DNA of 64,000 bases from Bradyrhizobium sp. WBOS07 (GTDB taxonomy: Bacteria > Pseudomonadota > Alphaproteobacteria > Rhizobiales > Xanthobacteraceae), in the NCBI RefSeq assembly GCF_024585165.1, contig NZ_CP029008.1, forward strand, positions 3,038,001-3,102,000, in the 5' to 3' direction. A program made the translations under genes and the position numbers. How positions within the stretch are numbered: the first letter of the stretch is position 1; every line of letters starts with the position of its first letter. This document shows, in pieces, positions 35,663 to 57,762 of the stretch. The notes under the pieces were generated by a model that was not told the origin of the DNA, searched no databases, and saw only the letters and a list, made by a program, of their open reading frames with translations.

Positions 35663-36913
35663 ATGTCGAAATGCAGTGTGGGACTGCTCGCGCTGAGCAG
35701 CCTGTTTCTTTCGGGCGCGGCGATCGCCCAGGAAAAGATCAAGGTCGGCGTCACGGCCACGCTCGAAGGCACCTACACGGTGCTCGGCGAGGACGGGATC
35801 CGCGGCCACCAGACCGCGCTCAACGTGCTGGGCAAGAAAGTCGGCGACAAGGAGCTCGAATTCATCATCGCCTCCACCGACGCGACGCCCGATTCCGCGG
35901 TCCGTGCCGTGCGCAAACTGATCGAGCAGGACAAGGTGCAGATCCTGCTGTCCCCGCTATCCGGTGACGAAGGCATCGCCGTCAAGAATTTCGCAAAGAC
36001 CCATCCGGAGCTGACCTTCATCAACGCCGCCTCGGGTGCCCAGGAAACGACCTATGTCGATCCCGCCCCGAACTTCTTCCGCTACAACATGGACGGCGCG
36101 CAATGGCAGGTGGGCCTCGGCAAATACGCCTATGAGGAGAAGAAGTATCGCAAGATCGCGACCGTCGGCGAGGACTATTCCTTCATCTACACCCAGGTGT
36201 TCGGCCTCGTGCTCGAATTCTGCGGCGCCGGCGGACAGGTCACGAACCGACAATGGGTGCCGCTCGGCACCAAGGACTTCGCCTCGGTCATCGCAGCGCT
36301 GCCCGACGATGTCGATGCGATCTATCTGGGCCTCGGCGGCGCCGACGCCGTCAACTTCCTCAACCAATATCAGCAGGCCGGCGGCAAGGCGCATCTGATG
36401 GGCGGCTCCATCATGATCGACCAGACCATCCTGTCGTCCAAGGGCAACGCCAAGAACGCTCTGATCGGCACCATCGCGGCGAGCGGCCAGGCCGACACCT
36501 GGGAGGATCCGGGCTGGCAGAAATTCGTGAAGGCCTATCAGGACGCCTTCCCGCCCAACAAGCGCTTCCCCAGCCCGTCACTGCTCGCCACCAACTATTA
36601 CGACTCGACCATGGCGCTGATCCTGGCGCTGCGGCAGGTCAATGGCGATCTCTCCAACAACCAGGCCAAGTACAAGGAAGCCCTCGCCAAGATCGAGATC
36701 GACGCGCCCAACGGCAAGATCAAGCTCGACTCCAACCGGCAGGCGATCGGCACGAACTTCGTCACCGAAGTCGTCGACGACGGCAAGGGCGCGCTGTTCT
36801 CAAAGGTCGTGAAGGTGATCCCCAACGTCAACCAGACGCTGGGCTATGATCCTGCGGTGTTTGCCAAGATCGGTTTGCCAAGCCGTACAGTACCGGAATG
36901 TAAGAAGTACTGA
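35663..36913 (+). CDS. Liv-type ABC transporter substrate-binding protein of the 36-58 kb locus
   Basis: 416 residues with a signal peptide (SKCSVGLLALSSLFLSGAAI, cleavage before QEKIKVGVTA). The fold is that of Liv/amide/aromatic receptors: TATLEGTYTVLGEDGIRGHQ, VQILLSPLSGDEG, NFFRYNMDGAQWQVGLG, GLGGADAVNFLNQYQQAGG. The ATG follows GGGAGGAG. It is the first gene of the long plus-strand locus; its permeases start 1.1 kb downstream, after an AraC-type gene. A long hairpin after its stop codon may let it be made in excess of the rest, as is usual for receptors. Ligand unknown. Confidence 0.92.
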   Translation: MSKCSVGLLALSSLFLSGAAIAQEKIKVGVTATLEGTYTVLGEDGIRGHQTALNVLGKKVGDKELEFIIASTDATPDSAVRAVRKLIEQDKVQILLSPLSGDEGIAVKNFAKTHPELTFINAASGAQETTYVDPAPNFFRYNMDGAQWQVGLGKYAYEEKKYRKIATVGEDYSFIYTQVFGLVLEFCGAGGQVTNRQWVPLGTKDFASVIAALPDDVDAIYLGLGGADAVNFLNQYQQAGGKAHLMGGSIMIDQTILSSKGNAKNALIGTIAASGQADTWEDPGWQKFVKAYQDAFPPNKRFPSPSLLATNYYDSTMALILALRQVNGDLSNNQAKYKEALAKIEIDAPNGKIKLDSNRQAIGTNFVTEVVDDGKGALFSKVVKVIPNVNQTLGYDPAVFAKIGLPSRTVPECKKY

Positions 36914-36939
36914 CGTAGTCCCATCGCGGGCGATGACTG

Positions 36940-36996
36940 ACCGGGGAGAGATTTGTAAGGGCGCGACGCGTGGCGCACTTGCATTCTCTCCCCGGT
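36940..36996 (+). terminator. long-armed hairpin between binding-protein and AraC genes
   Basis: Perfect 12-bp inverted repeat ACCGGGGAGAGA (36940-36951) and TCTCTCCCCGGT (36985-36996), with a 33-base loop that itself contains a GCGC-rich stem. It begins 27 bases after the receptor stop and ends 45 bases before the AraC start. It is followed by GTTGTTGAAC rather than a T run, so partial termination, mRNA stabilisation of the receptor message, or a regulator site are all possible. Confidence 0.5.
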
Positions 36997-37041
36997 TGTT
37001 GAACGCTATCGGAAAAACGAAGAGCTTCTGGGAGGGAAGGC

Positions 37042-37869
37042 ATGAGCCGGGCGCTCGCCGTCTTCCACGGCCGCTTCGGCCGGGCGACGGTCTATCAGTT
37101 GAACCGCCCTTTCAATATCCACGCGCATCGTGAAGGTCATTTGATCTTCCATGTCGGGGGACGTCCCGCATGCATCGATGTCAGCGATGGACGTTACGAG
37201 CTCACCGAAGGTTCCGTCGTCGCCGTCAATCCATGGGAGCCGCACAATTTCCTGCCGTCCGACCTCGAAGGCGGCGCCGTTTTCTTCGTGCTCTATGTCA
37301 ATGCGGAATGGTTTGCGCCCGATGCGCCCGGCACCGACCGGTTGCGCTTCGGCCGGACCCAGTTCACGCGGTCGGTCGCGCTGGACAAGCATATCAGGCA
37401 CGCCGCCGCCCTCGTCTGCGGCGCACCCTCGCTCAACAGCCTCGATGGCGAGCTGAGAAGGCTGATCGACATCTGCTACGACGAGAGTTGGCAACAGGCG
37501 GAGGCCGCGCGCGATCCGCGCGCGAACGGCTCCGTCACCGATTTTCGCGTGCGCAAGTGCATAAAGATGATGTCGGAAAGTCCCGGCGCCGAGATCGAGC
37601 TCGACACCATCGCACGCGAATCCGGCCTGTCGCGACCGCACTTCTACCGGCTGTTCCGCACCCAGACCGGCGTCACGCCGCACCTCTATCTCAACACGCT
37701 GATGATGGAGCAGGCGCTGGAGGCGCTGGTGGCGAGCGAGGCGCCGATCGCCGACATCGGCTTCGATCTCGGCTTCTCCTCGCAAAGCGGCTTCACGCGT
37801 TTCTTCGCCGCCAATGTCGGGATGGCCCCGACCGATTATCGCCGCGCCGCCAAGGTTTTGCGCGCCTGA
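37042..37869 (+). CDS. AraC family transcriptional regulator
   Basis: 275 residues. The N-terminal cupin-type sensor domain opens RALAVFHGRFGRATVYQLNR and includes VAVNPWEPHNFLPSD. The C-terminal double HTH has LDTIARESGLSRPHFYRLFR and IADIGFDLGFSSQSGFTRFF, ending GMAPTDYRR, the AraC signature. GGGAGGGAAGG precedes the ATG. Placed between the receptor and permease genes, it is the only regulator in the 22-kb locus and the obvious candidate to control it in response to the imported compound. Confidence 0.93.
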   Translation: MSRALAVFHGRFGRATVYQLNRPFNIHAHREGHLIFHVGGRPACIDVSDGRYELTEGSVVAVNPWEPHNFLPSDLEGGAVFFVLYVNAEWFAPDAPGTDRLRFGRTQFTRSVALDKHIRHAAALVCGAPSLNSLDGELRRLIDICYDESWQQAEAARDPRANGSVTDFRVRKCIKMMSESPGAEIELDTIARESGLSRPHFYRLFRTQTGVTPHLYLNTLMMEQALEALVASEAPIADIGFDLGFSSQSGFTRFFAANVGMAPTDYRRAAKVLRA

Positions 37870-38010
37870 CGGGCGCGCGAAAAGATACTCACGATCAAAT
37901 GCGTCCCCATCAGCCCCATTAGGATGTGCGCAACGCGGTCCCGACACGAGGACCGCGGTCGACAGGGAGCGCACGTTCATGGCAGGGCTTGCGGCCGGTG
38001 ACGGTCTGCG

Positions 38011-38040
38011 CGCCCCCTCACCTCGCTTGCAGGGAGAGGG
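38011..38040. repeat. short CCCTCACCTCGCTTGCAGGG-type element
   Basis: CCCCCTCACCTCGCTTGCAG followed by GGAGAGGG forms a small stem (CCCTC/GAGGG). It resembles the end of another scattered intergenic repeat family of Bradyrhizobium-type genomes; only this part is present. It sits 31 bases before the LivH-type start, in the 201-base gap after the AraC gene. Confidence 0.45.
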
Positions 38041-38070
38041 TTGGATCGACGTCGAGACGGAGCGGCGATC

Positions 38071-39081
38071 ATGAGCCGCTTCGTCGAGCGCCATCCCGCC
38101 TGGGCATTGATCGTCATCATCGCGGTCGCGGTGGCGCTGTGGCTCATCTTCGCGGTGTGGCCGCCGGGCCTCGAAGAGGCCGTCGGCCGCAAGCGGGTGT
38201 TCCTCAACGCGCTCTTCAACGGCATCACGCTCGGAGGTCTCTATTTCCTCGTCGCCAGCGGCTTCACGCTGATCTTCGGCCTGATGCGCAACGTCAATCT
38301 CGCGCACGGCTCGCTCTATCTGTTCGGCGGCTATGTCGGCTATGCCATCAGCGCCTCCACCGGCTCCTGGGTGCTGTCGTTCATCGTCGCCTTCGTCCTC
38401 ACCGCGCTGGTCGGCGTACTGCTTCAGGTTCTCGTGTTCCGCCGCATGGAGGGCCAGGATCTGCGCCAGACCATGGTGACGATCGGGCTCTCGATCGTGT
38501 TCGCCGACCTCATGCTGTGGGCCTGCGGCGGCGACTTCTACCAGATCCAGACTCCGAACTGGCTGATCGGCCCGATCGAGCTGCCGCTGCTCACCGCCGT
38601 GAAATCCTCTGGCGAGCCGGTCTACCTGCGCTATCCGCTGGTCCGGCTCGTGATCTTCCTGGCCTCCGCCGTCATTGGCATCGCGATGTGGCTCGCGCTC
38701 AACCGCACCCGGGCAGGCATGATCATCCGCGCCGGCGTCGACGACCGCGACATCCTCGCCGCGACCGGCGTCCGCATCCAGGTCGTCTTCGTGCTCGTCT
38801 TCGCTCTCGGCGCCGGGCTTGCCGGCATCGCCGGCGTGGTCGGCGGCACGTTCCAGTCGCTCTCGCCCGGTGAGGACATCCGCTTCCTGCTCGCCTCTCT
38901 CGTCGTCGTGATCGTGGGCGGCATGGGCTCGATCCCCGGCGCCGCGCTCGGCGCGCTGATCATCGGCCTCGCCGAGCAGCTCGGCTCGGTCTACATCCCG
39001 ACCTACGCCATCGTCGTGACCTTCCTGATCATGGTGCTGGTGCTGGCGCTTCGGCCGCAGGGCCTGCTGGCGAGGCGCTGA
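38071..39081 (+). CDS. Liv-type ABC transporter permease (LivH type)
   Basis: 336 residues, longer than usual LivH because of an N-terminal helix (WALIVIIAVAVALWLIFAVW) before the canonical opening LFNGITLGGLYFLVASGFTL. MRNVNLAHGSLYLFGGYVG and GGMGSIPGAALGALIIGLAE are family signatures. The start at 38071 is chosen because the frame upstream is not conserved. The next permease begins one base after the stop (TGAGATG). Confidence 0.9.
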   Translation: MSRFVERHPAWALIVIIAVAVALWLIFAVWPPGLEEAVGRKRVFLNALFNGITLGGLYFLVASGFTLIFGLMRNVNLAHGSLYLFGGYVGYAISASTGSWVLSFIVAFVLTALVGVLLQVLVFRRMEGQDLRQTMVTIGLSIVFADLMLWACGGDFYQIQTPNWLIGPIELPLLTAVKSSGEPVYLRYPLVRLVIFLASAVIGIAMWLALNRTRAGMIIRAGVDDRDILAATGVRIQVVFVLVFALGAGLAGIAGVVGGTFQSLSPGEDIRFLLASLVVVIVGGMGSIPGAALGALIIGLAEQLGSVYIPTYAIVVTFLIMVLVLALRPQGLLARR

Positions 39082-39082
39082 G

Positions 39083-40171
39083 ATGTCCGTCACGCATGAC
39101 GCCCGCGTTCAAGTTCACAGGCCCGCGTCGACGGTGGGACGGCCGGTTGCGCGCGCCTGGCCCGACATCAACAACCCCGCGGCCTGGATCGTGGCGGCCA
39201 TCCTGCTGATCATGCCGCTGATCGCCAACAGCTTCTTCCTGATCGAGATCTTTGCCACCACCTTGATCCTCGGCACCGTCGCGCTGAGCCTGATGTTCCT
39301 GGCCGGATATGGCGGCATGGTCAGCCTGATGCAGCTCACCATCGCAGGCTTCTGCGCCTACATGGTCGCGGTGTTCGGCGTCAGCGGCAATGCCAATATC
39401 AGCCTCGGCTGGCCGTGGTGGCTGGCGGTGCCGATGGCGCTGACGCTGGCTGTCGTCTTCGGCACCCTCGGCGGCGCGCTGGCGGTGCGCACCGAGGGCA
39501 TCTACACCATCATGATCACGCTGGCGATCGGCGCCGCGTTCTACTACTTCACCAACCAGAACTGGGCGATCTTCAACGGCCACACCGGCATCAACAACGT
39601 CTCGACGCCGCGTTTCTGGGGCGTCGACTGGCGGGCGGACATTCCCTTCTATTATGTCGTGCTCGCGACAGCCGGGCTCTGCTATTTTGCGGTCGACTAC
39701 ATCTCCCGTGCGCCATTCGGTCTCGCCCTCCAGGGCGTGCGCGACAATCCGCGCCGCATGTCCGCGCTGGGCTTCAACGTCAATGCCCACCGCGTCGCGG
39801 CCTATGCGGTGGCCTCCTTCATCGCGGGCCTTGCCGGTGTGCTCCAGGTCTGGAACTATCGCCAGATCTCGCCCGGCTCGGTCAGCGTCGGCGCCTGCAT
39901 CGACATCCTCATCATCGCCGTCGTCGGCGGCATCACCCGCCCGGTCGGTCCCTATATCGGCGCGCTGGTCTTCGTGCTCCTGCGCACCTTCGCGCTCGAC
40001 TTCCTGGTCAAGATCGGGCTCGACGGCAACCGCTTCCGCCTGCTGATCGGCCTCGGCTTTCTCGCCATCGTGTTCTGGTCGTCGGACGGCGTCATCGGTC
40101 TCTGGCAGCGCTGGCGCCAGAGCCGGCTACGCGAGACGGGCCGCCAGGGCGGAGGGCGCGGCCATGGATAG
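39083..40171 (+). CDS. Liv-type ABC transporter permease (LivM type)
   Basis: 362 residues with about nine to ten membrane helices. LivM signature LAGYGGMVSLMQLTIAGFCA (usual form GYGG..S.GQ) and cytoplasmic loop RDNPRRMSALGFNVNAHRVA. A charged tail ends GRQGGGRGHG. It overlaps the following ATPase gene by eight bases. It forms the channel of the locus importer with the LivH-type protein. Confidence 0.9.
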   Translation: MSVTHDARVQVHRPASTVGRPVARAWPDINNPAAWIVAAILLIMPLIANSFFLIEIFATTLILGTVALSLMFLAGYGGMVSLMQLTIAGFCAYMVAVFGVSGNANISLGWPWWLAVPMALTLAVVFGTLGGALAVRTEGIYTIMITLAIGAAFYYFTNQNWAIFNGHTGINNVSTPRFWGVDWRADIPFYYVVLATAGLCYFAVDYISRAPFGLALQGVRDNPRRMSALGFNVNAHRVAAYAVASFIAGLAGVLQVWNYRQISPGSVSVGACIDILIIAVVGGITRPVGPYIGALVFVLLRTFALDFLVKIGLDGNRFRLLIGLGFLAIVFWSSDGVIGLWQRWRQSRLRETGRQGGGRGHG

Positions 40172-40946
40172 CGTCGCCCAGCGCCTCTCCGCCGTCGGCG
40201 CCGGCGCAGCGCTGGAACTGCGTGGCGTGACGCGGCTGTTCGGCGCGCTGGCGGCCTTGACCGACGTCACCATCACCGTGCGTCCCGGCGAACGCCGCGC
40301 GGTGCTCGGCTCCAACGGCGCCGGCAAGACCACGCTGTTCAACTGCATCACCGGCGACTTTCCGCCGACATCGGGCACGATCCGCTTCTTCGGCGAAGAC
40401 GTCACGCATTTCCCGCCCTATGAGCGCATCCGCCGGGGACTGCGGCGCACCTATCAGATATCCGCGCTGTTTCCCGGCCTCACCGTGCAGGACAACGTCT
40501 ACCTCGCCTGCCGCGGCGTCTCGCGCGGACGGTTCTCGTTCCTGCGCCCCGGCCACAACGACGCGCTGATGCACGCCGCCGACAGCCTGGTGCAGGCCGT
40601 GCACCTGACTGCGGTCAAGGACCAGCGCGTTGCCGAGCTCGCGCACGGGCAGCAGCGCCAGCTCGAGATCGCGCTGGCGCTCGCCGGCGCCCCGCGCTTC
40701 GTGCTGTTCGACGAACCGGCCGCGGGCCTGTCGCCGACCGAGCGGGCCGAGCTGATCGAGATCCTGACCTCGCTGCCGGCCCATATCGGCTACATCATCA
40801 TCGAGCACGACATGGACGTGGCGCTGCGCGTCGTCGAGAGCGTGACGATGATGCACAACGGCCGCATCTTCAAGGAAGGCCCGCCGGAAGAGATTCAGTC
40901 CGATCCTGAAGTGCAGGAGTTATATCTCGGAGGCGGCCATGAATGA
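40164..40946 (+). CDS. Liv-type ABC transporter ATPase (LivG type)
   Basis: 260 residues. Walker A GSNGAGKTT near residue 50, RRTYQISALFPGLTVQDNVY as in LivG, signature region ELAHGQQRQLEIALAL (LAHGQ instead of LSGGQ), Walker B FVLFDEPAAGLSP and YIIIEHDMDVAL. Ends VQELYLGGGHE. It overlaps both neighbours by eight bases, so expression is tightly coupled. Confidence 0.92.
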   Translation: MDSVAQRLSAVGAGAALELRGVTRLFGALAALTDVTITVRPGERRAVLGSNGAGKTTLFNCITGDFPPTSGTIRFFGEDVTHFPPYERIRRGLRRTYQISALFPGLTVQDNVYLACRGVSRGRFSFLRPGHNDALMHAADSLVQAVHLTAVKDQRVAELAHGQQRQLEIALALAGAPRFVLFDEPAAGLSPTERAELIEILTSLPAHIGYIIIEHDMDVALRVVESVTMMHNGRIFKEGPPEEIQSDPEVQELYLGGGHE

Positions 40947-43155
40947 GGCCCGCCGCAATTCCGCTGCGCTCGAGGTCCGCGGGCTCGACGTCTATTACGG
41001 CCATTCGCACGCGCTCCAGGGCGTCGACCTTTCGCTGGAGAGCGGCGTGTTCTCCGTCGTCGGCCGCAACGGCATGGGCAAGACCACGCTGTGCAAGGCC
41101 ATCATGGGCCTGGTGCCGGTCAGCGGCGGCTCGATCCGGGTCCGCGGCGAGGACATCACGCGGCGGCCGCCCGCTCACATCGCGCGCCTCGGCGTCGGCT
41201 ATGTGCCGCAAGGTCGCCGCCTCTGGCGCTCGCTCAGCGTGGACGAGCATCTCCAACTTGCCGGCGGGATGCGGTCGGGTGCCTGGACCGTCGAGCGCAT
41301 CTACGACACTTTTCCGCGCCTCGCCGAGCGCAAGGACCATGGCGGCAGCCAGCTCTCCGGCGGCGAGCAGCAGATGCTGGCGATCGCGCGCGCGCTGCTG
41401 ACCAACCCGCAACTCCTGGTCATGGACGAACCGACCGAAGGCCTCGCGCCCGTCATCGTCGCCCAGGTCGAGGAGATGCTGCTGCGGCTGGGCGAGGACG
41501 GCGACATGTCCGTGCTCGTGATCGAGCAGAACATCGGCGTGGCGACCGCGATCTCGCGCAACGTCGCCATCATGGTCAACGGCCGCATCAACCGCATCAT
41601 CGACTCGGCGCGGCTCGCCGCCGACCGCGAGTTGCAGCAGCGTCTGCTCGGCGTCGGCTTGCATGCCGAGCTTACGCCGGATCTCGACGTGCCGGCGGCA
41701 GGCTCGGACGCGAAGCCGGCGCCGCAGGCCGCCCGACCGAGCGGCCCGATCCGGATCTACATCTCCAACCCGACACCGCCGACACGCTGGTCCCAACCCG
41801 CGCCCATCGCCCGGATCGAAGCGGCGGCACGCACGCTCTCGACGCAGGTATCGCGCCTCGACGAGACGGCGCGGCGCAAGCGCGAGCCGGCGACATCGCA
41901 GTCGTCGGGGCCGCCGGTCGTGCTGGTCGTCGGCACGCTCGACACCAAGGGGACGGAGCTCCGCTTCATCCGCGACATCGTCGCCGAAACCGGCCTGCGC
42001 ACGCGGCTGGTCGACGTCTCCACCAGCGGCAGGCACGCCAGCTGCGATGTCTCCGCGCAGGAGATCGCGCTGAACCATGGCCGCGGCGGGGCTGCGGTGT
42101 TCGGCGCCGACCGCGGCGCGGCCGTGACGGCGATGGCGGACGCGTTCGCCAACTGGCTGCGGCGCCAGGGGAATGTCGCCGGCGTGATCTCTGCCGGCGG
42201 CTCGGGCGCGGCCTCGCTGGTTGCCCCGGGCATGCGCACCCTGCCGGTCGGCGTGCCCAAGCTGATCATCTCATCCGTCGCCTCCGGCGATATCGGACCC
42301 TATGTCGGTCCCGCCGACATCACCATGATGCACTCGGTCACCGACGTTCAGGGACTGAACTCGATCTCGCGCGCCGTGCTGTCGAACGGCGCCAACGCGA
42401 TCGCGGGCATGGTCAAGGCGCGCCTCGATCAGCACGAGACGAGGCAGCGCGCCGCCAGCGCGGCACCGCCTGCGGTCGGCATCACCATGTTCGGCGTGAC
42501 GACGCCGGCCGTCCAGAAGATCGCCGCGGAGCTGGGCGCGGACTTCGAATGTCTCGTCTTCCACGCCACCGGCGTCGGCGGCCGCTCGATGGAGAAGCTC
42601 GTCGAATCCGGCCAGCTCGCCGGCGTCATCGATATTACGACGACCGAGATCTGCGATCTGCTGATGGGCGGCGTGTTTCCCGCCACCGAAGATCGCTTCG
42701 GCGCGATCATCCGCACCCGCCTGCCCTATGTCGGCTCCGTCGGCGCGCTCGACATGGTCAATTTCGGCGCGCCCGACACAATTCCCGAACGCTACCGCGG
42801 CCGCAAGTTCCACGTCCACAATCCGCAGGTGACGCTGATGCGGACGACTGTCGAAGAGAATGAACGGATGGGCCGCTGGATCGCCGAGCGGCTCAACCAG
42901 ATGGATGGCCCGGTCCGCTTCTTCCTGCCCGAGGGCGGCGTCTCCGCACTCGATGCGCGGGGCCAGCCGTTCTGGGATCCGGACGCCGATGCCGCCCTGT
43001 TCCGCGCGCTGGAGCGCGACGTGCGGCAGACCGGCAACCGCCAGCTCATCCGCGTTCCCCACAATATCAACGATCCCGATTTCGCCGCCGCCATCGTCAG
43101 TGCATTCCGAACCCTGTTCGGCCGCACCGGGGCGCGGCGGAGACTAGCGAGGTGA
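40939..43155 (+). CDS. LivF-type ABC ATPase fused to Tm-1-like (UPF0261) domain
   Basis: 738 residues in two parts. Residues 1-235 form a complete LivF ATPase: Walker A GRNGMGKTT at 42-50, YVPQGRRLWRSLSVDEHL, LSGGEQQ at 139-145, VMDEPTEGL from 161, VLVIEQN. Residues 236-324 are a Pro/Ala-rich linker. From about 325 (PPVVLVVGTLDTKGTELRFI) to the end runs a Tm-1-like ATP-binding domain: GVISAGGSGAASLVAPGMR, ISSVASGDIGPYVGPADI, FHATGVGGRSMEKL, then DPDFAAAIVSAFRTLF. The Tm-1-like domain is of unknown reaction and is typically paired with the PEP-hydrolase-like protein encoded next, as here. Fusion ties that function to the transporter's ATPase subunit. It overlaps the LivG-type gene by eight bases. 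Confidence 0.9.
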   Translation: MNEARRNSAALEVRGLDVYYGHSHALQGVDLSLESGVFSVVGRNGMGKTTLCKAIMGLVPVSGGSIRVRGEDITRRPPAHIARLGVGYVPQGRRLWRSLSVDEHLQLAGGMRSGAWTVERIYDTFPRLAERKDHGGSQLSGGEQQMLAIARALLTNPQLLVMDEPTEGLAPVIVAQVEEMLLRLGEDGDMSVLVIEQNIGVATAISRNVAIMVNGRINRIIDSARLAADRELQQRLLGVGLHAELTPDLDVPAAGSDAKPAPQAARPSGPIRIYISNPTPPTRWSQPAPIARIEAAARTLSTQVSRLDETARRKREPATSQSSGPPVVLVVGTLDTKGTELRFIRDIVAETGLRTRLVDVSTSGRHASCDVSAQEIALNHGRGGAAVFGADRGAAVTAMADAFANWLRRQGNVAGVISAGGSGAASLVAPGMRTLPVGVPKLIISSVASGDIGPYVGPADITMMHSVTDVQGLNSISRAVLSNGANAIAGMVKARLDQHETRQRAASAAPPAVGITMFGVTTPAVQKIAAELGADFECLVFHATGVGGRSMEKLVESGQLAGVIDITTTEICDLLMGGVFPATEDRFGAIIRTRLPYVGSVGALDMVNFGAPDTIPERYRGRKFHVHNPQVTLMRTTVEENERMGRWIAERLNQMDGPVRFFLPEGGVSALDARGQPFWDPDADAALFRALERDVRQTGNRQLIRVPHNINDPDFAAAIVSAFRTLFGRTGARRRLAR

Positions 43156-43158
43156 CCG

Positions 43159-43992
43159 ATGGCCCGGTTTGAGCGCGCTGCACTCCTGAAACGATTCCGC
43201 GAGATGGCGAAGCGCGGCGAGCCGATCGTCGGCGGCGGGGCCGGCACCGGCCTGTCGGCCAAGTGCGAGGAGGCCGGCGGCGTCGACCTCATCGTGATCT
43301 ACAATTCCGGCCGCTATCGCATGGCCGGTCGCGGCTCGCTGGCGGGGTTGATGGCTTACGGCGACGCCAACGCCATCGTGCTGGAGATGGCCGGCGAAGT
43401 TCTGCCTGTGGTCAGCAACACGCCGGTGCTCGCAGGCGTCAACGGCACCGATCCGTTCCGCGACATGGACGTCTTTCTCGACCAGTTGAAGACGCTCGGC
43501 TTTGCCGGCGTGCAGAACTTTCCGACGGTCGGCCTGATCGACGGCGTGTTCCGCGCCAACCTCGAGGAAACCGGCATGTCCTACGCGCTTGAGATCGACA
43601 TGATCGCGAAGGCGCGCGAGAAGGACCTCCTGACGACGCCGTACGTCTTCAGCGAGAAGGAAGCCGCCGCGATGGCGCTCGCCGGCGCCGACATCATCGT
43701 CTGCCATCTCGGGCTCACGACCGGCGGCACGATCGGCGCGCAGACCGCAGCAAAGCTGAAGGACTGCCCGGCGCGCATCGACGTCTGGGCCTCCGCCGCG
43801 CTCAGCGTCAATCCCGATATCCTGGTGCTCGCTCACGGCGGCCCGATCGCGGATCCCGCCGATGCCGATTTCATCATGAAGAACACCCGCTACTGCCACG
43901 GCTTCTACGGCGCCTCTTCGATGGAGCGGCTGCCAGTCGAGCGGGCTCTGACGGAGCAGGTGCGTAAATTCAAGGCGATCGGCGCGCAATAA
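43159..43992 (+). CDS. phosphoenolpyruvate hydrolase family TIM-barrel protein
   Basis: 277 residues. The sequence opens [20 protein letters not shown] then [20 protein letters not shown] and [20 protein letters not shown], the hallmark of the PF09370-type TIM barrels annotated as PEP hydrolase or signal-transduction proteins. Further conserved parts are [31 protein letters not shown] and [14 protein letters not shown]. It starts three bases after the Tm-1-like fusion gene. The two families occur together widely, suggesting that they act on the same substrate; the reaction is not established. Confidence 0.87.
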
Positions 43993-44018
43993 CGCCGGAA
44001 CGATCGAGGGAGAGAAAC

Positions 44019-50727: not shown

Positions 50728-50728
50728 C

Positions 50729-51751
50729 ATGACCCGGCATCGCGGACGCGGCATGGCGTCGATCAACTATCCCATCGGCATGAACCTCGGCGGCGATCCG
50801 AGCCAGGCCCTGGTTCACTCCAATCCCAGCGGCAAGTTCACGGTCGCGTTGTCGTCGATCGATCTCGGCCAGGGCATGAAGTCGGTGACGCGGCAGATCT
50901 GCGCGGAAACGCTCGGCGTTCCCGTCGAGGACGTCTATGTCGACACCGCCGATTCCGACACCGGCCCGCACTGCATGGGCTCGTTCGCCTCGCGCGGCAC
51001 CCACCGCGTCGGCAATGCGGTGATGGCCGCTGCCCGCGAAGCGCGTGGGGTGATGATGGAGGCGGCGGCCGAGGAGCTCGAGGTCAACGCCGCCGATCTC
51101 GACACCGACGGGCGCGGCAACATCCACGTCAAGGGCGCGCCGCACCGCTCGATCTCGACCAAGGACGTCGCGATTGCCGCGCAGTTCAAGCAGGGCAAGA
51201 CCATCTCGGGCCGCGGCATCTTCCTGGTCCCGCTCTCCGATGTCGACCCGGAGACCGGCGAGATGTCGCCGGCGACCTGCTACGCCCATGCCTGTCTGGT
51301 CGCGGAAGTCGAGGTCGATGACGAGACCGGCGAAGTCGCGATGGTGCGGATGGATTCCGCCTATGAGCTCGGCCGCGCGCTCAATCCGCGCCTGGTCGAG
51401 CAGCAGCTGGTCGGCGGCGCCTGGATGGGCGTCAGCCACGCGCTCTACGAGACCCCGGAGCCGTATTATCCCGATCCCGTTCATGGGCCCCGCGACTTCG
51501 TCGAATATCTGATGCCCGGCCCTGGCGACATCTGCCCGCACGATATCGCGGTGCTGGAGCGTCCGGCGCCCGATGGTCCCTTCGGGGCCAAGGGACCCGG
51601 TGAGATGTGCGCCAATCCGGTGCTCCCGGCCGTCGCGAATGCGATTTTCAACGCCGTCGGCGTCCGCATCGACGACCTGCCGATCACGCCCGAAAAGGTG
51701 CTGCGCGCGATCAAGGCCCAGGGCGGCGCGCGGCCGCAGGCTCGGCGTTAG
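50729..51751 (+). CDS. molybdenum hydroxylase large subunit, C-terminal part
   Basis: 340 residues matching the second molybdopterin-binding domain of CoxL/XdhB: RGRGMASINYPIGMNLGG, DLGQGMKSVTRQICAETLGV, DTADSDTGPHCMGSFASRGT, and the catalytic loop FGAKGPGEMCANP with the base Glu 292. It begins one base after the stop of the N-terminal part. Together the two halves contain every conserved motif I would look for, so a functional heteromeric catalytic subunit is more likely than decay. It ends PQARR, with GTG of the MoxR gene eleven bases later. Confidence 0.88.
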   Translation: MTRHRGRGMASINYPIGMNLGGDPSQALVHSNPSGKFTVALSSIDLGQGMKSVTRQICAETLGVPVEDVYVDTADSDTGPHCMGSFASRGTHRVGNAVMAAAREARGVMMEAAAEELEVNAADLDTDGRGNIHVKGAPHRSISTKDVAIAAQFKQGKTISGRGIFLVPLSDVDPETGEMSPATCYAHACLVAEVEVDDETGEVAMVRMDSAYELGRALNPRLVEQQLVGGAWMGVSHALYETPEPYYPDPVHGPRDFVEYLMPGPGDICPHDIAVLERPAPDGPFGAKGPGEMCANPVLPAVANAIFNAVGVRIDDLPITPEKVLRAIKAQGGARPQARR

Positions 51752-51761
51752 AGGATCGGCC

Positions 51762-52639
<878 letters not shown>

Positions 52640-52643
<4 letters not shown>

Positions 52644-53761
52644 ACACCGAGCCCCGGCTTCCGCGCGCCGCCCGCGTCTTCGTCTCGTTCGTTGCGCTGC
52701 TGCGCGCCAACAACTTTGCGGTCGCGCCGGAGCAGACCACCGCGTTCCTCACCGCGATCGAGCTGCTCGGCCCGCGCGACCTCGAGGATATCAGGCAGGC
52801 GGCGCTCGCCACCCTTGCCCCGCCGCCCGAGCGCCGCGCCGCTTTCGACCGGCTGTTCGATCTGCACTTCCGCGGCAGCGAGGCGGTCGAGCGCGCCGAC
52901 GACGGCGAAGACGACGAGACCGTCCGGCTCCAGGAAGAAGGCCGCGGCGACGAGGAACCATTGCTGTCCGATGACGCCAATGAATCCGGCCTGACTGCCG
53001 CACGGACCGAGGCGCTGGTCGAGCGCCGCTTCGCGCAACTCTCCACGACCGACGCCCTGCGCCGCCTGACGCGCGAGGCGCCACGACGGCTGCCGCGGCG
53101 CCGCGGTCACCGTCGCATGCGGACCCGCCGCGGTCCGTTCGCCGACCTCCGTCGCACCTTGCGTGACAGCGTTCGCAGCGACGGCGAGATCCTACGGCTC
53201 GGCCACATGAAGCGGCGTCAGCGCCCGCGCAAGATGCTGCTGCTGATCGACGTCTCCGGCTCGATGAAGAGCCGCACCGAGGAGAACATGAAGCTTGCGC
53301 ATGCGCTGGTGCAGGCTGCGCCCAATGTCGAGGTGTTCACCTTCGGCACGCGGCTGACCCGCGTCACCCGTCCGCTGCGGCTGAAGCGCCGCGAGCAGGC
53401 ACTGAACGCGGCCGCGCATCTGGTCAGCGATTGGGACGGCGGCACCCGCATCGGCGACGCGCTGCAGGCCTTTCTCGCCGTGCCCCGCTTCGGTGGCTAT
53501 GCCCGCGGCGCCGCTGTCGTAATCGTCTCGGACGGATTGGAGCGTGGCGAACCCGATGCGCTGCGCGATGCGGTCGCAAAGCTGTCACGGCGGGCCTGGC
53601 GGGTGAGCTGGCTGACGCCTCTGGCGACAGGCCCCGCCTTCCGCCCCCAAACCGAGGCGCTCATTGCCATCGAGCGCTTCGTCGACGACCTCGTCGACGG
53701 CGGCTCGAGCGCGTCGATCGTCGCGCACATTCTGGCGCTGGGACGAAGGAGAGCGGCGTGA
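52640..53761 (+). CDS. VWA domain protein (CoxE-like)
   Basis: 373 residues from ATG 52640, overlapping the MoxR stop (ATGA). The N-terminal half is helical and acidic, with a strongly basic patch (RRLPRRRGHRRMRTRRG, about 150-166). The C-terminal von Willebrand A domain has the MIDAS motif DVSGS at 204-208, followed by DGGTRIGDAL and VIVSDGLERG. This is the CoxE layout (DUF58-independent VWA). It should act with the MoxR ATPase. It ends in a GTGA overlap with the amidohydrolase gene. Confidence 0.92.
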
Positions 53762-54642
53762 CCGATATGATCGACGGCCATCACCACATCTGGCGGCAGG
53801 CCGACCTGCCCTGGCTGGTCGGGCCGATGCAGCCCCGCATTTTCGGACCCTACGAGCCGATCCGGCGCGATTATCCGATCGAGGAATATCTCGACGACCT
53901 CAAAGGCACCGGCGTCACCCGCTCGGTCTACGTCCAGACCAACTGGGCCAACGACCGTTTCGAGGACGAAGCCGCCTGGGTCCAGCAAACCGCCGACGCG
54001 CATGGCTGGCCCCATGCAATCGTCGCCTACGCCAATTTCGCCGTGGACGATGTGCGACCTCAGCTCGACCGCCTGAAGCGCTATCCCCTGGTGCGCGGCG
54101 TGCGCATGCAGCTGCATTGGCACGAGAACCCGCTCTACCGCTTTGCAGCCCGCGCCGATCTCTGTGCCGATCCGATGATCCAGCGCAACGTTGCGCACCT
54201 TGCCGACTATGGCTGGAGCTTCGACCTGCAGGTGTTCACGCCGCAAATGCCGCAGGCCGCGGCGCTCGCGCAAGCCTGCCCCGACGTCACCTTCATCCTC
54301 CAGCATGCCGGCATGCTCGAGGACCTCTCGCCCGCCGGCCGCGCGGCCTGGCGCGCCGGCATCGCGCAGCTGGCAGCCCGTCCGAACGTGGTCTCGAAGC
54401 TGTCGGGGCTCGGCACCTTCATCCATCGCAACGATCCCGCGCATATTGCGGCCGTCGTCACCGACACGGTCGCGATGTTCGGCGCCGAACGCTGCCTGTT
54501 CGGCTCCAATTTTCCGATCGAGAAATTGTGGACCAGCTATCGCGAGCTCGTCGATGCATTTCGCGCAGCCACTGCGCCGCTGAGCACCGAGCAGAAGGAC
54601 GCGATCTTCAAGACGACGGCAATGCGCGTCTACCGGCTTTGA
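53758..54642 (+). CDS. amidohydrolase family 2 (TIM-barrel lactonase/decarboxylase-like)
   Basis: 294 residues beginning at GTG 53758, inside the VWA stop codon, with AAGGAG seven bases upstream. HxH metal motif in MIDGHHHIWRQADLPWL near residues 7-9, GPYEPIRRDYPIEEYLDDL, GVRMQLHWHENP, LQHAG with the third histidine, FGSNFPIEKLW with the Asp position replaced by Asn as in some lactonase-type members. Resembles L-fuconolactonase/2-pyrone-4,6-dicarboxylate-hydrolase-like proteins, pointing to hydrolysis of a lactone or cyclic acid after ring hydroxylation. Exact substrate unknown. Confidence 0.88.
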   Translation: MTDMIDGHHHIWRQADLPWLVGPMQPRIFGPYEPIRRDYPIEEYLDDLKGTGVTRSVYVQTNWANDRFEDEAAWVQQTADAHGWPHAIVAYANFAVDDVRPQLDRLKRYPLVRGVRMQLHWHENPLYRFAARADLCADPMIQRNVAHLADYGWSFDLQVFTPQMPQAAALAQACPDVTFILQHAGMLEDLSPAGRAAWRAGIAQLAARPNVVSKLSGLGTFIHRNDPAHIAAVVTDTVAMFGAERCLFGSNFPIEKLWTSYRELVDAFRAATAPLSTEQKDAIFKTTAMRVYRL

Positions 54643-54673
54643 CAGGCAAGGGACAGGACAGGGAGAGCAACGA

Positions 54674-55522
54674 ATGGCGCTGGAGATCAAGATCCTGGAT
54701 TATGGCGATATCGAACTGGAATCGAGCTTTCTGGTTCTCGGCCGCGACTGCGGCCGCACCCGCCGCGTCCTCACCCTCGGCTTCCTGATCCTCGGGGGGA
54801 AATATCCAGTCGTGGTCGACACCGGCTACCGCTCCAACCAGATCATGGAGACGCTGGGCATGCGCGGGCTTCAGTACCATGAGAACATGATCGAGAACCA
54901 GCTCGCGCGCCACGGCGTGCGCATGGGCGACGTCCGCTTCGTCTGCCACACCCATCTGCACATCGACCATGCCGGCAAGGACGATCTGTTTCCGATGAAC
55001 ACGACGGTGGTCCTCAACCGCAAGGAGCTGGAATATTCCGTCTCCGGCCTGATGCATCCGCAATACCCGGCGCCCGACATCAAGCACCTGATCGACCGCC
55101 TGCATACCAAGAGCGCGCTGCGTTTCCTCGACCTGGAGATCACCGGCCCGATCGAGCTGATGCCCGGCGTCTATTGCGACGCCGCCAACGCGCATACCGA
55201 GGGATCGATGAACGTCATCGTCGAGACCGCCGACGGCATCGCGACCATCTGCGGCGATGTGATCTACGACTTCAACGACCAGATCGTCACGCCCTTCAAC
55301 GAGATCCACGACTGGGAGCCGCGCACCACCGGCAACCACGGCACCAGCAAGCGCGCGGAAAAGGCCTCGATCAAGAAGCTGCTCAGCAATTCGCGCTACC
55401 TGCTGCCCGTGCACGACCGTCCGGCCAAGATCGAAGGCGGCAACGTGGTCGGGCGCCTGCACGACCAGGTCCCCGGACCGGTCGTGCAATCGCTGCCGGC
55501 GCGCAACTGGTTTCCGGCGTGA
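54674..55522 (+). CDS. MBL-fold hydrolase, N-acyl-homoserine-lactonase-like
   Basis: 282 residues. Metallo-beta-lactamase motif HTHLHIDH at 92-99, then NAHTEGSMNVIVE with a metal histidine, ICGDVIYDF with the bridging Asp, and a late PVHDRPAKI histidine. The N-terminal GFLILGGKYPVVVDTGY matches AttM/AiiA-type lactonases, which are dinuclear zinc enzymes. Quorum-signal degradation is one option; the operon context suggests rather a lactone intermediate of the imported compound. GGGAG precedes the ATG. Confidence 0.87.
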   Translation: MALEIKILDYGDIELESSFLVLGRDCGRTRRVLTLGFLILGGKYPVVVDTGYRSNQIMETLGMRGLQYHENMIENQLARHGVRMGDVRFVCHTHLHIDHAGKDDLFPMNTTVVLNRKELEYSVSGLMHPQYPAPDIKHLIDRLHTKSALRFLDLEITGPIELMPGVYCDAANAHTEGSMNVIVETADGIATICGDVIYDFNDQIVTPFNEIHDWEPRTTGNHGTSKRAEKASIKKLLSNSRYLLPVHDRPAKIEGGNVVGRLHDQVPGPVVQSLPARNWFPA

Positions 55523-55542
55523 CGTGACCTGAGGATCGAGCG

Positions 55543-57132
55543 ATGACCCACGTCACCTTGCGAAGCGAGTTCGAGACCCTGATCGATCCCTACGCGCCGG
55601 TCGCGCAGGTCGGCACCGGCTTCGACTTCACGGAGGGGCCTGTCTGGCATCCGATCGATCACTATCTGCTGTTCTCGGACATGCCTGCCGACGTGCGGCG
55701 GCGCTGGGACCCGCGGCGCGGCGTCGCCGAGGTCAAGCGTCCGTCGAACAAATGCAACGGCATGACCTATGACGCCGAGCTGAACCTGATCGTCTGCGAG
55801 CATGCGACCTCGCAGCTGGTCCGCGAGCGGCCGGACGGCCGGCGCGAGGTGCTCGCCTCGCATTTCCAGGGTCAGGAGCTGAACAGCCCGAACGACGTCT
55901 GCGTGCACTCCTCGGGCGCGATCTATTTCTCGGACCCCTGGTACGGCCGCATGCCGGTCTATGGCGTCGAGCGACCGCGGCAACTCGGCTTCCAGGGCGT
56001 CTATCGCGTCGTGCCCGGCGGCGAGCCGAAGCTCGTGGTGGACCGCACCTTGTTCGACCAGCCGAACGGATTGTGCTTCGCGCCGGACGAGAAGCTGCTC
56101 TATGTCAACGACACCGTCCAGGCGCTGATCCGCGTGTTCGAGGTCGCTGGCGACGGCTCGCTGTCCAATGCGCGCGTGTTCGCCAGCGGCATCCGCTCCG
56201 AGCTCGAACCCGGACTGCCCGACGGCATGAAGTGCGACCAGCACGGCAATGTCTGGGTCACCGCGCCGGGCGGCGTCTGGGTCTATTCACCGCGCGGCGA
56301 ATTGCTCGGCAAGCTCCGCCTTCCCGAGCTCGTCGCCAACCTTGCCTGGGGCGGTCCAGATTTCCGCACGCTGTATCTGACCTCGACGCATTCGGTCTAC
56401 GCCATCCCGACCAAGGTCGGCCCGCGCCATGAGCCCTATATGAACGCCAGACCTGGCAGCGGCCGACCTGGCAGCGGCCCCGCGGCCGCCGGCTCCGCAC
56501 CTGCCGCCCCCATCCTTGCCGATGGCGAGATGCATCTCGATCCGCAGCGCTGTGCCATGATCATCCAGGATCTCCAGAACGACGTCATCATGACCGGCGG
56601 CGCGTTTGCTGAGTCCGGAGCGCCGGAACATGCGCGGCAGCAGCACGTCGTCGAGAACGTTCGCCGTCTTGCCGAGGCCGCGCGGGCCCGCGGAATCGTC
56701 ATCATCCATGTCTGGTTCGTCGTCGAGCCAGGCGCGCCCGGGGTGACGCTGAACGCCCCTTTGTTCGAAGGCCTGGTCGACAGCAAGGCGATGGTGCGCG
56801 GGAGCTGGGGCGCGGCGCCGGTTTCGGGTCTCGAGCCAAGGCCCGGCGATTTCGTCGTCGAGAAGATGCGCATGAGCGCCTGGGAGGGAACGCGGCTGGA
56901 GACGATCCTGAAGGCGACCGGCCGCGACATGATCATCAACACCGGGGCCTGGACCAACATGTCGATCGAGCACACCGCCCGCACCGGCGCCGACAAGGGC
57001 TATTTCATCATCGTGCCCGAAGATTGCTGCTCGACCATGAATGCCGACTGGCACAACGCCTCGATCAACTTCGCAATGCAGAACGTCGCGATCGTCACCC
57101 GGGCGGACACCGTCATCCGGGCGTTGGGATGA
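55543..57132 (+). CDS. SMP-30/gluconolactonase fused to isochorismatase-like domain
   Basis: 529 residues. Residues 1-310 are an SMP-30 beta-propeller lactonase (FDFTEGPVWHPIDHYLLFSD, ELNSPNDVCVHSSGAIYFSD, QPNGLCFAPDEKLLYVND, PDGMKCDQHGNVWVTAPGG). A Gly/Pro/Ala linker with GSGRPGSGP covers about 310-330. From 335 an isochorismatase-like hydrolase follows: IIQDLQND with Asp 343, VVEKMRMSAW with Lys 441, and GAWTNMSIEHTAR, where the usual nucleophilic Cys is Ser 474. Family members with Cys are amidases; those without it include true isochorismatases, which open a vinyl ether without a nucleophile. A two-step activity on one substrate (lactone opening, then hydrolysis) is my inference. Confidence 0.88.
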   Translation: MTHVTLRSEFETLIDPYAPVAQVGTGFDFTEGPVWHPIDHYLLFSDMPADVRRRWDPRRGVAEVKRPSNKCNGMTYDAELNLIVCEHATSQLVRERPDGRREVLASHFQGQELNSPNDVCVHSSGAIYFSDPWYGRMPVYGVERPRQLGFQGVYRVVPGGEPKLVVDRTLFDQPNGLCFAPDEKLLYVNDTVQALIRVFEVAGDGSLSNARVFASGIRSELEPGLPDGMKCDQHGNVWVTAPGGVWVYSPRGELLGKLRLPELVANLAWGGPDFRTLYLTSTHSVYAIPTKVGPRHEPYMNARPGSGRPGSGPAAAGSAPAAPILADGEMHLDPQRCAMIIQDLQNDVIMTGGAFAESGAPEHARQQHVVENVRRLAEAARARGIVIIHVWFVVEPGAPGVTLNAPLFEGLVDSKAMVRGSWGAAPVSGLEPRPGDFVVEKMRMSAWEGTRLETILKATGRDMIINTGAWTNMSIEHTARTGADKGYFIIVPEDCCSTMNADWHNASINFAMQNVAIVTRADTVIRALG

Positions 57133-57135
57133 CCG

Positions 57136-57762
57136 GTGGCCAAGCTCCTGCATCTGTCCTGCTCGCCCCGCCCCGACTCCGAGTCGAGCGCCGGCGCACG
57201 CGTCTTCCTTGACGGGTTTCGGCAAGCGCGGCCCGACTGGGACATCGACGTGATGGACCTCTGGCGCGAGCGGCTGCCGGAATTCATCGGTCCCATCGTA
57301 GAGGCCAAGTATGCGCGCATGAAGGCGCAGCCGTTCGACGACGCACAGCGCCGCAGCTTCTCCGAGGCGGAGCGGATCGCATTGCGGTTCTCGCTGGCCG
57401 ATCGCGTGCTGATCTCGACGCCGATGTGGAATTTCGGCATCCCCTACAAGCTGAAGCAATGGTTCGACATCGTCATCCAGCCCGGCCTGACGTTCCGGTT
57501 CGATCCAGCGCAGGGCTATCTTCCGCTGCTCAAGGACCGGCCAACCGTCGTCATCCTCGCTTCGGGCAGCGATTTTGCCACCGGCATGAATCGCGGCCGC
57601 ATCGACATGGCAACGCCCTATTTGCGCGAAGCGCTTCGCTTCATCGGCGTCAGCGACGTGCGCTTCGTGCCGATCGGACCGACGACGGGGCCGGCGGAGC
57701 CAATCCGCGTCGCGCGCGAGGCGGCATATCGGCAACTGGGGACGATGGCTGCGCGGTTTTGA
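57136..57762 (+). CDS. FMN-dependent NADH-azoreductase-like flavoprotein
   Basis: 208 residues from GTG 57136, three bases after the previous stop. Flavodoxin-like fold: LLHLSCSPRPDSESSAGARV (FMN phosphate loop), TPMWNFGIPYKLKQWFDIVI, and GSDFATGMNRG. This is the AzoR/quinone reductase family, which reduces quinones and azo dyes by two electrons. As the last gene of the locus it may detoxify or recycle a quinone-like product or act as an electron sink. No clear Shine-Dalgarno; translation is probably coupled. Confidence 0.88.
   Translation: MAKLLHLSCSPRPDSESSAGARVFLDGFRQARPDWDIDVMDLWRERLPEFIGPIVEAKYARMKAQPFDDAQRRSFSEAERIALRFSLADRVLISTPMWNFGIPYKLKQWFDIVIQPGLTFRFDPAQGYLPLLKDRPTVVILASGSDFATGMNRGRIDMATPYLREALRFIGVSDVRFVPIGPTTGPAEPIRVAREAAYRQLGTMAARF

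Follow-up and report, generated by a model that had tools for sequence, protein, structure and literature searches.

What kind of system would bring a Liv-type importer, a giant flotillin, a molybdenum (Mo) hydroxylase and a series of hydrolases together in a single run of genes? The question is raised by positions 35663 to 57762 of a 64,000-nucleotide (nt) stretch of DNA from Bradyrhizobium sp. WBOS07 (contig NZ_CP029008.1, the single contig of a 6.73-Mb genome), here called the window. Positions are numbered on the window, and features lie on the plus strand unless stated otherwise. An initial annotation of this DNA had described the block as about twenty plus-strand genes, and 20 were counted, every one on that strand. 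The gene order is conserved far beyond chance, and the block is very probably one system. We lean, by a small balance, toward a catabolic system under common control that would be scaffolded by the flotillin by means of docking tags. The front of the block contains the following features.

35663..36913, plus strand: Liv/HAAT-type periplasmic binding protein (SBP); Peripla_BP_6 E 8.6e-49; best PDB match 4zpj
37042..37869, plus strand: AraC-family regulator; HTH_18 E 8e-23
38071..39081, plus strand: LivH-type permease; BPD_transp_2 E 3.1e-35; start 38071 chosen, 38041 possible
39083..40171, plus strand: LivM-type permease; BPD_transp_2 E 1.1e-30
40164..40946, plus strand: LivG ATPase; ABC_tran and BCA_ABC_TP_C
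40939..43155, plus strand: LivF ATPase fused to both UPF0261 (Tm-1-like) domains, 738 amino acids; Pfam; Tm-1 PDB 3wry E 6.2e-99
41647..41916, plus strand: variable linker of the LivF-Tm-1 fusion (approximate bounds); conserved PPTRWSQ core, with PTRWS at residues 281-285, bases 41779-41793
43159..43992, plus strand: PEP-hydrolase-like/TBST TIM barrel; PF09370 E 1.4e-129; PDB 2p10 E 3e-120
44019..46925, plus strand: giant flotillin, 968 amino acids; Band_7 and Flot (Pfam)
44595..46691, plus strand: rod of the flotillin, about 698 residues from one marker motif to the other, with a 44-residue (4 x 11) repeat
46935..47372, plus strand: SRPBCC protein A; Polyketide_cyc2 (PF10604) E 6.8e-29
47375..47818, plus strand: SRPBCC protein B, GTG start, 147 amino acids; translation, and a homologue at the equivalent place in locus L004 (L, G and P numbers are our labels for loci, genomes and database proteins)

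By Pfam, the Liv/HAAT importer set is complete (Peripla_BP_6, two BPD_transp_2 and two ABC ATPases), the flotillin has both an SPFH/Band_7 and a Flot domain, and the Tm-1-like pair comprises the UPF0261 N and C domains with the TBST partner gene adjacent. The other parts that had been named for the block were likewise recovered by Pfam, apart from the second SRPBCC protein, which was recognized as listed above and whose counterparts in relatives match SRPBCC protein A at 43 to 53%. Kinship of the SBP to its nearest PDB chain, 4zpj, is a weak lead only, and no ligand was inferred from it. Junctions between genes are tight, with 17 of 19 spanning 31 bp or less; the exceptions flank araC (128 bp between SBP and araC, 201 bp between araC and livH). 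The earlier wording of overlaps or gaps of a few bases was therefore slightly too strong. For coxM, coxD and the amidohydrolase gene (amh), the start could lie a few codons off, without effect on the junction count. A scan of positions 38000-57999 returned terminator- and promoter-like sites at background level only.

The case for one system rests first on gene neighborhood. A genome scan with the LivF-Tm-1 fusion gave 205 relatives, and among the best 80 loci 79 are titled Bradyrhizobium, the remaining one Frankia sp. RB7. In 72 of these 80 loci the whole series of 15 genes, SBP through coxE, keeps its order; the other eight are shorter and without genes at one end. The gene for the N-half of the Mo subunit, coxL1, was sought in 60 genomes, 36 of them of the genus (that of WBOS07 included); among the 36, it matches at no less than 87% identity in 26 genomes and at 71% in a further one. 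Of 117 genus genomes, 93 have the metallo-beta-lactamase-fold (MBL) gene found near the end of the block (E <= 1e-80), as a partial match in one case. Outside the genus, ten loci carry a collinear cluster with 39 to 85% identity per gene, the extremes being araC in G054 (39%) and coxL2 in G207 (85%). These loci belong to other families of the order (G054, G048, G056), to other members of the class (G190, G207, G218, G375, G747) and to plasmids of Shinella zoogloeoides and Yoonia sp. SS1-5. The Shinella and G218 stretches yielded no MBL gene and the Yoonia stretch no SBP gene; in G207, the MBL and SMP-30/isochorismatase genes sit together on another contig. The flavodoxin-like gene (57136-57762) occurs only in Bradyrhizobium-genus loci (G021, G025) among the loci searched. 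Pairwise distances of 17 other families, from up to 13 loci and with no species-tree control, correlated with those of coxL2 (r 0.48-0.95) and of the fusion (r 0.58-0.87). That the fusion, the flotillin and the split large subunit co-occur in order in distant families bears out the proposal, made in the initial annotation, that the block is one system.

Published expression data from Bradyrhizobium diazoefficiens point the same way. The name bll3382 belongs to P0274, a database relative of the fusion (91%), and counting outward from it by gene order places the block at bll3369-bll3387, 19 genes; the published names of bll3386 (AraC), bll3377 (coxM), bll3376 (coxS) and bll3369 (gluconolactonase) agree with this placement. 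According to the text of PMC6201568, bll3369-bll3384 are among the genes lowered more than fourfold in a phaR mutant, and bll3387, which carries a PhaR-like site, is lowered 5.13-fold. In a nasT mutant, bll3383-3386, 3369, 3376 and 3377 are raised 2.3- to 5.4-fold (Table 3 of PMC6759348). The window has a site at the corresponding place:

35503..35514, plus strand: PhaR-like site TGCGCCGCAACA, 148 bp from its end to the SBP start codon; differs from the published consensus at one position

The 12-mer is identical to the bll3387 site in Table 3 of PMC6201568. The PhaR-like pattern itself is not enriched in the window (33 matches versus 28.4 expected), so only the exact published 12-mer at the matching place was used. 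Co-regulation of much of the orthologous block is thus reported in two mutants (PMC6201568, PMC6759348), which adds to the case for one system. The label "polyketide synthesis cluster" that PMC6201568 attaches to the block is not supported by the domains found, and PMC6321122 lists bll3374 in a figure legend. A literature search, most subscription papers being outside its reach, found no functional study of the block. The initial annotation had seen no recognized counterpart, and this stands for function; as a locus it is widespread in the genus, and the expression literature includes its counterpart in B. diazoefficiens.

Are the blocks inseparable? In a sample of 385 genomes of the class, the full-length LivF-Tm-1 fusion was found in 17 (with UPF0261 alone in ten more) and coxL2, at E <= 1e-95, in eight; six genomes have both. 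The remaining 11 of the 17 fusion genomes carry another arrangement, type II, the full cluster of the window being type I. The type II loci are L149-L159 (genomes G394, G164, G437, G401, G138, G087, G416, G243, G338, G187, G181). Their front contains the fusion, the PEP-hydrolase-like gene, flotillin, SRPBCC and LivG in all 11 and SBP in ten. Their back has an SRPBCC domain fused to a zinc-binding dehydrogenase in 11 of 11 (by Pfam for one, by homology for the rest; we call it quinone-oxidoreductase-like, a naming of our own), joined by an FAH protein in eight, an alpha/beta hydrolase in nine, and an amidohydrolase in eight of the 11 fetched stretches plus one upstream in L158. No close coxL2 was found in the type II genomes of the class sample. 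In L159, a distant coxM/S/L-like set lies on the opposite strand beside the type II cluster. The fusions of the two types form the two sides of one tree branch (support 100/99). What is new here is that in 11 of the 17 fusion genomes the front cassette (Liv importer, LivF-Tm-1 fusion, PEP-hydrolase-like protein, flotillin and SRPBCC) is joined to another back end.

The converse arrangement also occurs. Short forms with M-S-L1-L2-D-E-amidohydrolase genes and neither flotillin nor fusion were seen in the stretches from Sinorhizobium BG8, Nonomuraea gerenzanensis, G050, G486, G740, G688, G545 and G588, with a PEP-hydrolase-like gene nearby in G050; M-S-L1-L2 without D, E or amidohydrolase was seen in the fetched stretches of the haloarchaeon Salinigranum rubrum, G255 and G348. 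In the Salinigranum rubrum plasmid locus (L122), hydroxylase genes split in the NdhL/NdhM manner lie with genes for a cyclase-family and an SRPBCC protein, which suggests wide transfer of the hydroxylase core. Stand-alone Tm-1/PEP-hydrolase pairs occur on plasmids of Azospirillum, Sinorhizobium, Terrarubrum and Mesorhizobium (L135-L139), several of them beside sugar ABC transporter, cupin, Gfo/Idh/MocA or SRPBCC genes. A cassette without this hydroxylase, and a hydroxylase core without flotillin, make the system modular. Occurrence of the blocks at unrelated loci, which had been named in advance as evidence against one system, is therefore partly realized: for the cassette in 11 of 17 fusion genomes, and for the hydroxylase core within the fetched stretches.

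These findings invite the explanation that two independent neighboring modules, one of transport, Tm-1 and flotillin and the other of hydroxylase and hydrolases, share regulation only. Each block does occur without the other, and the nasT table of PMC6759348 holds only 7 of the 19 genes. Yet the order is fixed over deep divergence, regulation is reported at both ends of the block, distances are correlated (again with no species-tree control), and the hydroxylase tail described below is seen only where the cassette is present. We regard two independent modules as improbable. The blocks are separable, yet travel together in the window's lineage.

What does the hydroxylase block encode? Its genes are these.

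47821..48639, plus strand: flavin adenine dinucleotide (FAD) subunit, CoxM type; FAD_binding_5 and CO_deh_flav_C; ATG 47821
48646..49122, plus strand: [2Fe-2S] subunit, CoxS type; Fer2 and Fer2_2
49135..50727, plus strand: Mo large subunit N-half, CoxL1/NdhL type; Ald_Xan_dh_C and MoCoBD_1; best PDB match 3hrd_A E 2e-58
50503..50724, plus strand: CoxL1 tail, a Pro-rich linker ending in RFSSVFGTRRR; motif at 50692-50724
50729..51751, plus strand: Mo large subunit C-half, CoxL2/NdhM type; MoCoBD_2; best PDB match 3hrd_B E 7.3e-47
51762..52643, plus strand: MoxR-type AAA ATPase, CoxD type; AAA_5 and AAA; GTG 51762 taken as start, uncertain
52640..53761, plus strand: VWA_CoxE protein; PF05762 E 1.5e-46

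The best solved relative of CoxL1 is the large subunit of nicotinate dehydrogenase (3hrd_A), and CoxL2 aligns nearly end to end with the medium subunit (3hrd_B), residues 3-331 on 2-328. The 3hrd structure is that of the Eubacterium barkeri enzyme, whose gene names the NdhL/NdhM labels follow. The split falls at the boundary between large and medium subunits, and a GAKGxGE stretch near the C terminus is common to the window's enzyme and nicotinate dehydrogenase. The split that had been reported for the large subunit is real, being present in the examined relatives and in 3hrd, which rules out a frameshift as its origin. Its position, a new observation, is that of nicotinate dehydrogenase, and the enzyme has the build of a nicotinate-dehydrogenase-type molybdenum hydroxylase. 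Maturation genes of the CoxD/CoxE type are present (AAA_5 and VWA_CoxE).

That the block is an operon for aerobic carbon monoxide (CO) dehydrogenase would account for the M-S-L-D-E order with its SRPBCC genes, and the initial annotation had seen in it a copy of the cox cluster. Gene order and maturation genes uphold that comparison; the enzyme itself is nearer to nicotinate dehydrogenase. A CSFR active-site loop marks the large subunit of aerobic CO dehydrogenase. No CSFR is present in the CoxL1 translation, in agreement with the earlier statement that the loop is missing, and the CO-dehydrogenase model TIGR02416 gives the two halves 179 and 116 bits against a cut-off of 991, below it even if summed. 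The xanthine dehydrogenase model pucD likewise gives 285 plus 122 bits against 784, and all NCBIfam equivalogs score far below their cut-offs for the Mo enzyme. The subunit is split, and an importer and hydrolases would be of no use for CO. Two of the genes are named coxM and coxS in PMC6759348, and the probability of a CO dehydrogenase is nonetheless practically negligible; we dropped it on the missing loop and the model scores.

The flotillin has a rod, the region from the end of SPFH to the Flot cap. Identity within the rod peaks at lags that are multiples of 11, with 44 the strongest, and lag-44 identity is 0.294, compared with a mean of 0.109 and a maximum of 0.148 in 500 shuffles. This 44-residue repeat is a new observation. 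Lengths were measured where both marker motifs were found, that is in 12 named type I loci, 73 of the 80 scanned loci and eight of the 11 type II loci (no value for G012, Yoonia, L156, L158 and L159). The rod has 620-870 residues in the twelve type I loci, 439-442 in the eight type II loci and 695-700 in 72 of the 73; the remaining locus among L003-L082 has 654, or 43-44 fewer, about one repeat. A second flotillin of the host genome (L002; residues 181-450, markers not found) has no peak at 44. Among database relatives (the best 120 of 6062), P0003 too has a long 44-repeat rod. Database fusions of PEP-hydrolase with flotillin (P0013) and of flotillin with SRPBCC (P0004) were judged by eye to be frameshift artefacts, since at the joins and in parts of the rod the sequence looks translated in another frame, and were not counted. 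The human flotillin complex is a membrane-attached, cone-shaped cage with a helical wall whose helix has 186 residues (PMC11260169), and the window's flotillin may form a taller wall.

Could other proteins of the block be addressed to this flotillin? CoxL1 ends in a variable Pro-rich stretch that closes in RFSSVFGTRRR, of the general type RFSSxxGxRRR. Tail and end motif are present in 24 of 24 coxL1 genes from flotillin-containing loci (the window, ten of the 80 loci, the genus genomes G012, G024 and G025, and ten loci from outside the genus), Yoonia having the form RFISGSRRR. The tail is absent from all 11 intact short-form coxL1 genes, Sinorhizobium BG8 being left out for its broken frame. 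The end motif also closes 73 of 73 complete coxL1 genes among the 80 loci and 110 of the best 120 of 3638 database matches, close relatives at 74-96% identity to the window; by eye, eight of the ten entries without it are cut short, shifted in frame or merged, and the ends of the other two (P0151, P0168) are variants. Conservation is concentrated at the end: across 14 loci, four from within the genus, the mean majority fraction is 0.79 in the last 12 tail columns and 0.25 in the linker. Only end and middle of this alignment are quoted, since ten of its tails begin at a cutting pattern and four, from G054, G048, G207 and G747, are the last 90 residues. An all-frame scan of the loci found no RFSSxxGxRRR-type motif outside CoxL1. 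The CoxL1 tail with its conserved RFSSxxGxRRR-type end motif, found only in flotillin loci, is a new observation.

A second candidate lies in the LivF-Tm-1 linker, which varies from 81 to 121 residues. Its [TN]RW[STG] core occurs in 23 of 23 linkers cut out (1000 shuffles: mean 0.03, maximum 2), in 24 of 24 fusions when one linker missed by the cutting pattern is counted (G012 was not reached), and in 120 of 120 database fusions among the matches listed, all close relatives. This single conserved motif, also new and likewise a candidate tag, is common to types I and II. The type II amidohydrolases of L149, L150, L151, L152, L153, L155 and L157 have a conserved N-terminal peptide, possibly a third docking tag, of the type x-A/T-[DE]-x-x-[FY]-x-x-W-x-G, after which comes a variable linker. 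In encapsulin-like logic, a protein shell recruits cargo via short peptides. The pattern here resembles it, being a short conserved peptide on a variable tether that occurs only with the scaffold, where the change is a single one on the tree and scaffold absence refers to the fetched stretches. The tail and linker motifs lend support from sequence to the association with flotillin that the initial annotation had proposed, and to the scaffold reading generally. A docking role for the two peptides has, in our estimate, slightly less than an even chance.

Several points weigh against the scaffold reading and against parts of the one-system case. Type II clusters have a flotillin and no RFSS..RRR tail. 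A single branch of the coxL2 tree (100/99; rooted only for drawing) sets 13 long-form rows apart from the rest, so tail and cassette record one evolutionary change, not many. On that branch the cassette arrived as Tm-1, PEP-hydrolase-like and SRPBCC proteins with flotillin, hence there are several possible docking partners. Absence of flotillin from short forms was checked within fetched stretches of 4.6 to 36 kb, and these forms sit near sugar-type ABC genes, unlike the Liv importer. AlphaFold models of CoxL1 and SRPBCC protein A are poor (mean pLDDT, the predicted local distance difference test, of 49 and 37 between the two), probably because the alignments are shallow (20 and 8 close relatives), and give no structural support for docking; SRPBCC protein A matches only PF10604 in Pfam and nothing in NCBIfam, and its model is too poor for a fold search. 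Whole-genome descent could produce the correlated distances, which lack a species-tree control. On the side of regulation, the phaR statement is taken from the paper's text, and the nasT table covers only the seven genes mentioned. The published names of bll3383-3385 (permease, ATP-binding, ATP-binding) differ from the kinds expected by order, so that the mapping rests on bll3382, 3386, 3377, 3376 and 3369 and the PhaR-like site.

These points leave room for one catabolic operon with a flotillin of general membrane or stress function, in which the CoxL1 tail would have another task: it might help the split subunit assemble, add stability, or bind to an SRPBCC protein or, as a basic and aromatic peptide, to the membrane. 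The basic RRR end would suit binding to lipid or an acidic surface, the one branch that sets flotillin apart does the same for the Tm-1, PEP-hydrolase-like and SRPBCC proteins, and type II flotillins do without a CoxL1-type tail. A tail for maturation only is unlikely, however, for short forms keep both halves, and most keep CoxD/CoxE, with no tail; the linker motif, moreover, is common to types I and II, as expected if it reads a shared component. A general flotillin with an unrelated tail is, all told, rather unlikely, and flotillin scaffolding with docking tags stays the reading we slightly favor.

What compound would such a system consume? The last four genes of the block are these.

53758..54642, plus strand: Amidohydro_2 protein resembling L-fucono-1,5-lactonase; PF04909 E 2.4e-50; start 53758 or 53767
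54674..55522, plus strand: MBL-fold hydrolase, lactonase-like; Lactamase_B
55543..57132, plus strand: SMP-30/gluconolactonase fused to an isochorismatase-type hydrolase; SGL and Isochorismatase; PDB 3e5z, 3kl2
57136..57762, plus strand: Flavodoxin_2 reductase, accessory; Pfam

The amidohydrolase scores 106 bits on the L-fucono-1,5-lactonase model NF052480 (cut-off 400), and the MBL protein scores 51 and 48 bits on the models for N-acyl-homoserine lactone (AHL) lactonase (AiiA) and 4-pyridoxolactonase (cut-offs 375 and 325). The 53758-54642 product has GSNFPIE where the L-fucono-lactonase-like relative 4dlf has GSDWPV, so that Asn stands in place of Asp close to where the active site is expected; NFPIEK is conserved in the compared loci, with NYPIEK in Yoonia. 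Outside the block lie, on the minus strand, a separate ABC transporter upstream (SBP_bac_1, 33248-34516; BPD_transp_1, 32305-33246) and a tRNA-Leu (gag) gene shortly downstream (58877-58961).

One candidate is a sugar-like lactol or aldose, from which the Mo enzyme would make a lactone to be opened by the COG3618-type and SMP-30 enzymes. The amidohydrolase is nearest L-fucono-1,5-lactonase by model, some short forms lie near SBP_bac_1, MalK-type or Peripla_BP_4 transport, 6PGD, GFO_IDH_MocA and aldo-keto reductase genes, though on both strands, and the Yoonia locus adds SDR-FAH-SDR and an aldehyde dehydrogenase. Long forms, by contrast, use a Liv-type binding protein, every score is far below the curated cut-offs, and the isochorismatase domain suggests an amide. 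The other candidate is an aromatic or N-heteroaromatic acid that would receive a hydroxyl group beside the ring nitrogen, in the manner of nicotinate dehydrogenase. Both Mo-subunit halves match that enzyme first, lactone/lactam- and amide-opening families follow in the cluster, and the MBL protein is weakly like 4-pyridoxolactonase; yet the kinship is distant within a broad family, and no ring-specific enzyme was recognized. Either substrate taken singly is somewhat unlikely, and the two are about equally likely on present evidence.

The most economical reading combines import, oxygen insertion by the Mo enzyme, lactone or lactam opening by up to three hydrolase families, and amide cleavage. 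The Liv importer would take up a small organic acid or, as the initial annotation had proposed, a cyclic compound, which would pass to the Tm-1/PEP-hydrolase-like pair or directly to the hydroxylase. The hydroxylase would insert oxygen from water, the resulting lactone, lactam or acid would be opened by the COG3618-type amidohydrolase, MBL-fold and SMP-30 enzymes, and the isochorismatase domain would cleave an amide. CoxG is an SRPBCC protein that carries quinone; by analogy, the SRPBCC proteins of the block may carry quinone or else a hydrophobic intermediate. The flotillin would form a membrane-attached wall or microdomain around the machinery, and the CoxL1 tail RFSSVFGTRRR and the LivF-Tm-1 linker PTRWS would act as tethered docking tags bringing enzyme and importer to it. 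In its boldest version, which we consider quite unlikely, the 44-repeat-rod flotillin would make a tall, membrane-capped cage over the importer and the Mo-hydroxylase pathway, read two address peptides (RFSSxxGxRRR, C-terminal on a Pro-rich tether, and internal PTRWS), and accept the type I and II back ends as plugs into one front cassette. If true, the result would be a catabolic compartment attached to the membrane, walled by protein and possessing a targeting code of its own.

Bacterial flotillins are credited with organizing membrane functions, but to our knowledge little has been established about their clients and the recognition of these. The operon offers a defined set of candidate clients and two candidate docking peptides short enough to mutate. 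It also gives the uncharacterized Tm-1/UPF0261 and TBST pair a concrete metabolic setting, a fused importer ATPase; the pair is of interest because plants have turned it into a virus-resistance protein (PMC5028733). In the soybean symbiont B. diazoefficiens, the counterpart block has already been reported, in the texts cited above, to respond to phaR and nasT mutations.

The block can be set beside several known systems. With nicotinate dehydrogenase (3hrd) it shares a Mo subunit in two genes, divided at the same place, and the GAKGxGE stretch; unlike that enzyme, its CoxL1 is extended by a tail of roughly 70-160 residues that closes in the end motif, and its cluster adds flotillin, importer, Tm-1 pair and CoxD/CoxE genes. 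The cox cluster has the same M-S-L-D-E order, MoxR and VWA_CoxE genes and SRPBCC proteins, whereas the window has no CO-dehydrogenase loop, low model scores, a split L, hydrolases and an importer. Plant Tm-1 (a UPF0261 and TBST fusion; PMC5028733) has both UPF0261 domains, as does the window with its adjacent TBST gene; in the window, however, UPF0261 is fused to an ABC ATPase and TBST is a separate gene. The flotillin cage of Flotillin1/2 (PMC11260169) resembles the window's flotillin in its SPFH domain and in a long, charged helical region that shows no classical heptads, whereas the window's rod has about 700 residues with a 44-residue repeat, against a wall helix of 186, and lies within a catabolic operon. 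The type II clusters share the Liv importer, the LivF-Tm-1 fusion with its linker motif, and the PEP-hydrolase-like, flotillin and SRPBCC proteins, but have a back end of SRPBCC-zinc-binding dehydrogenase, FAH, alpha/beta hydrolase and amidohydrolase and a rod of about 440 residues in the eight of 11 that were measured.

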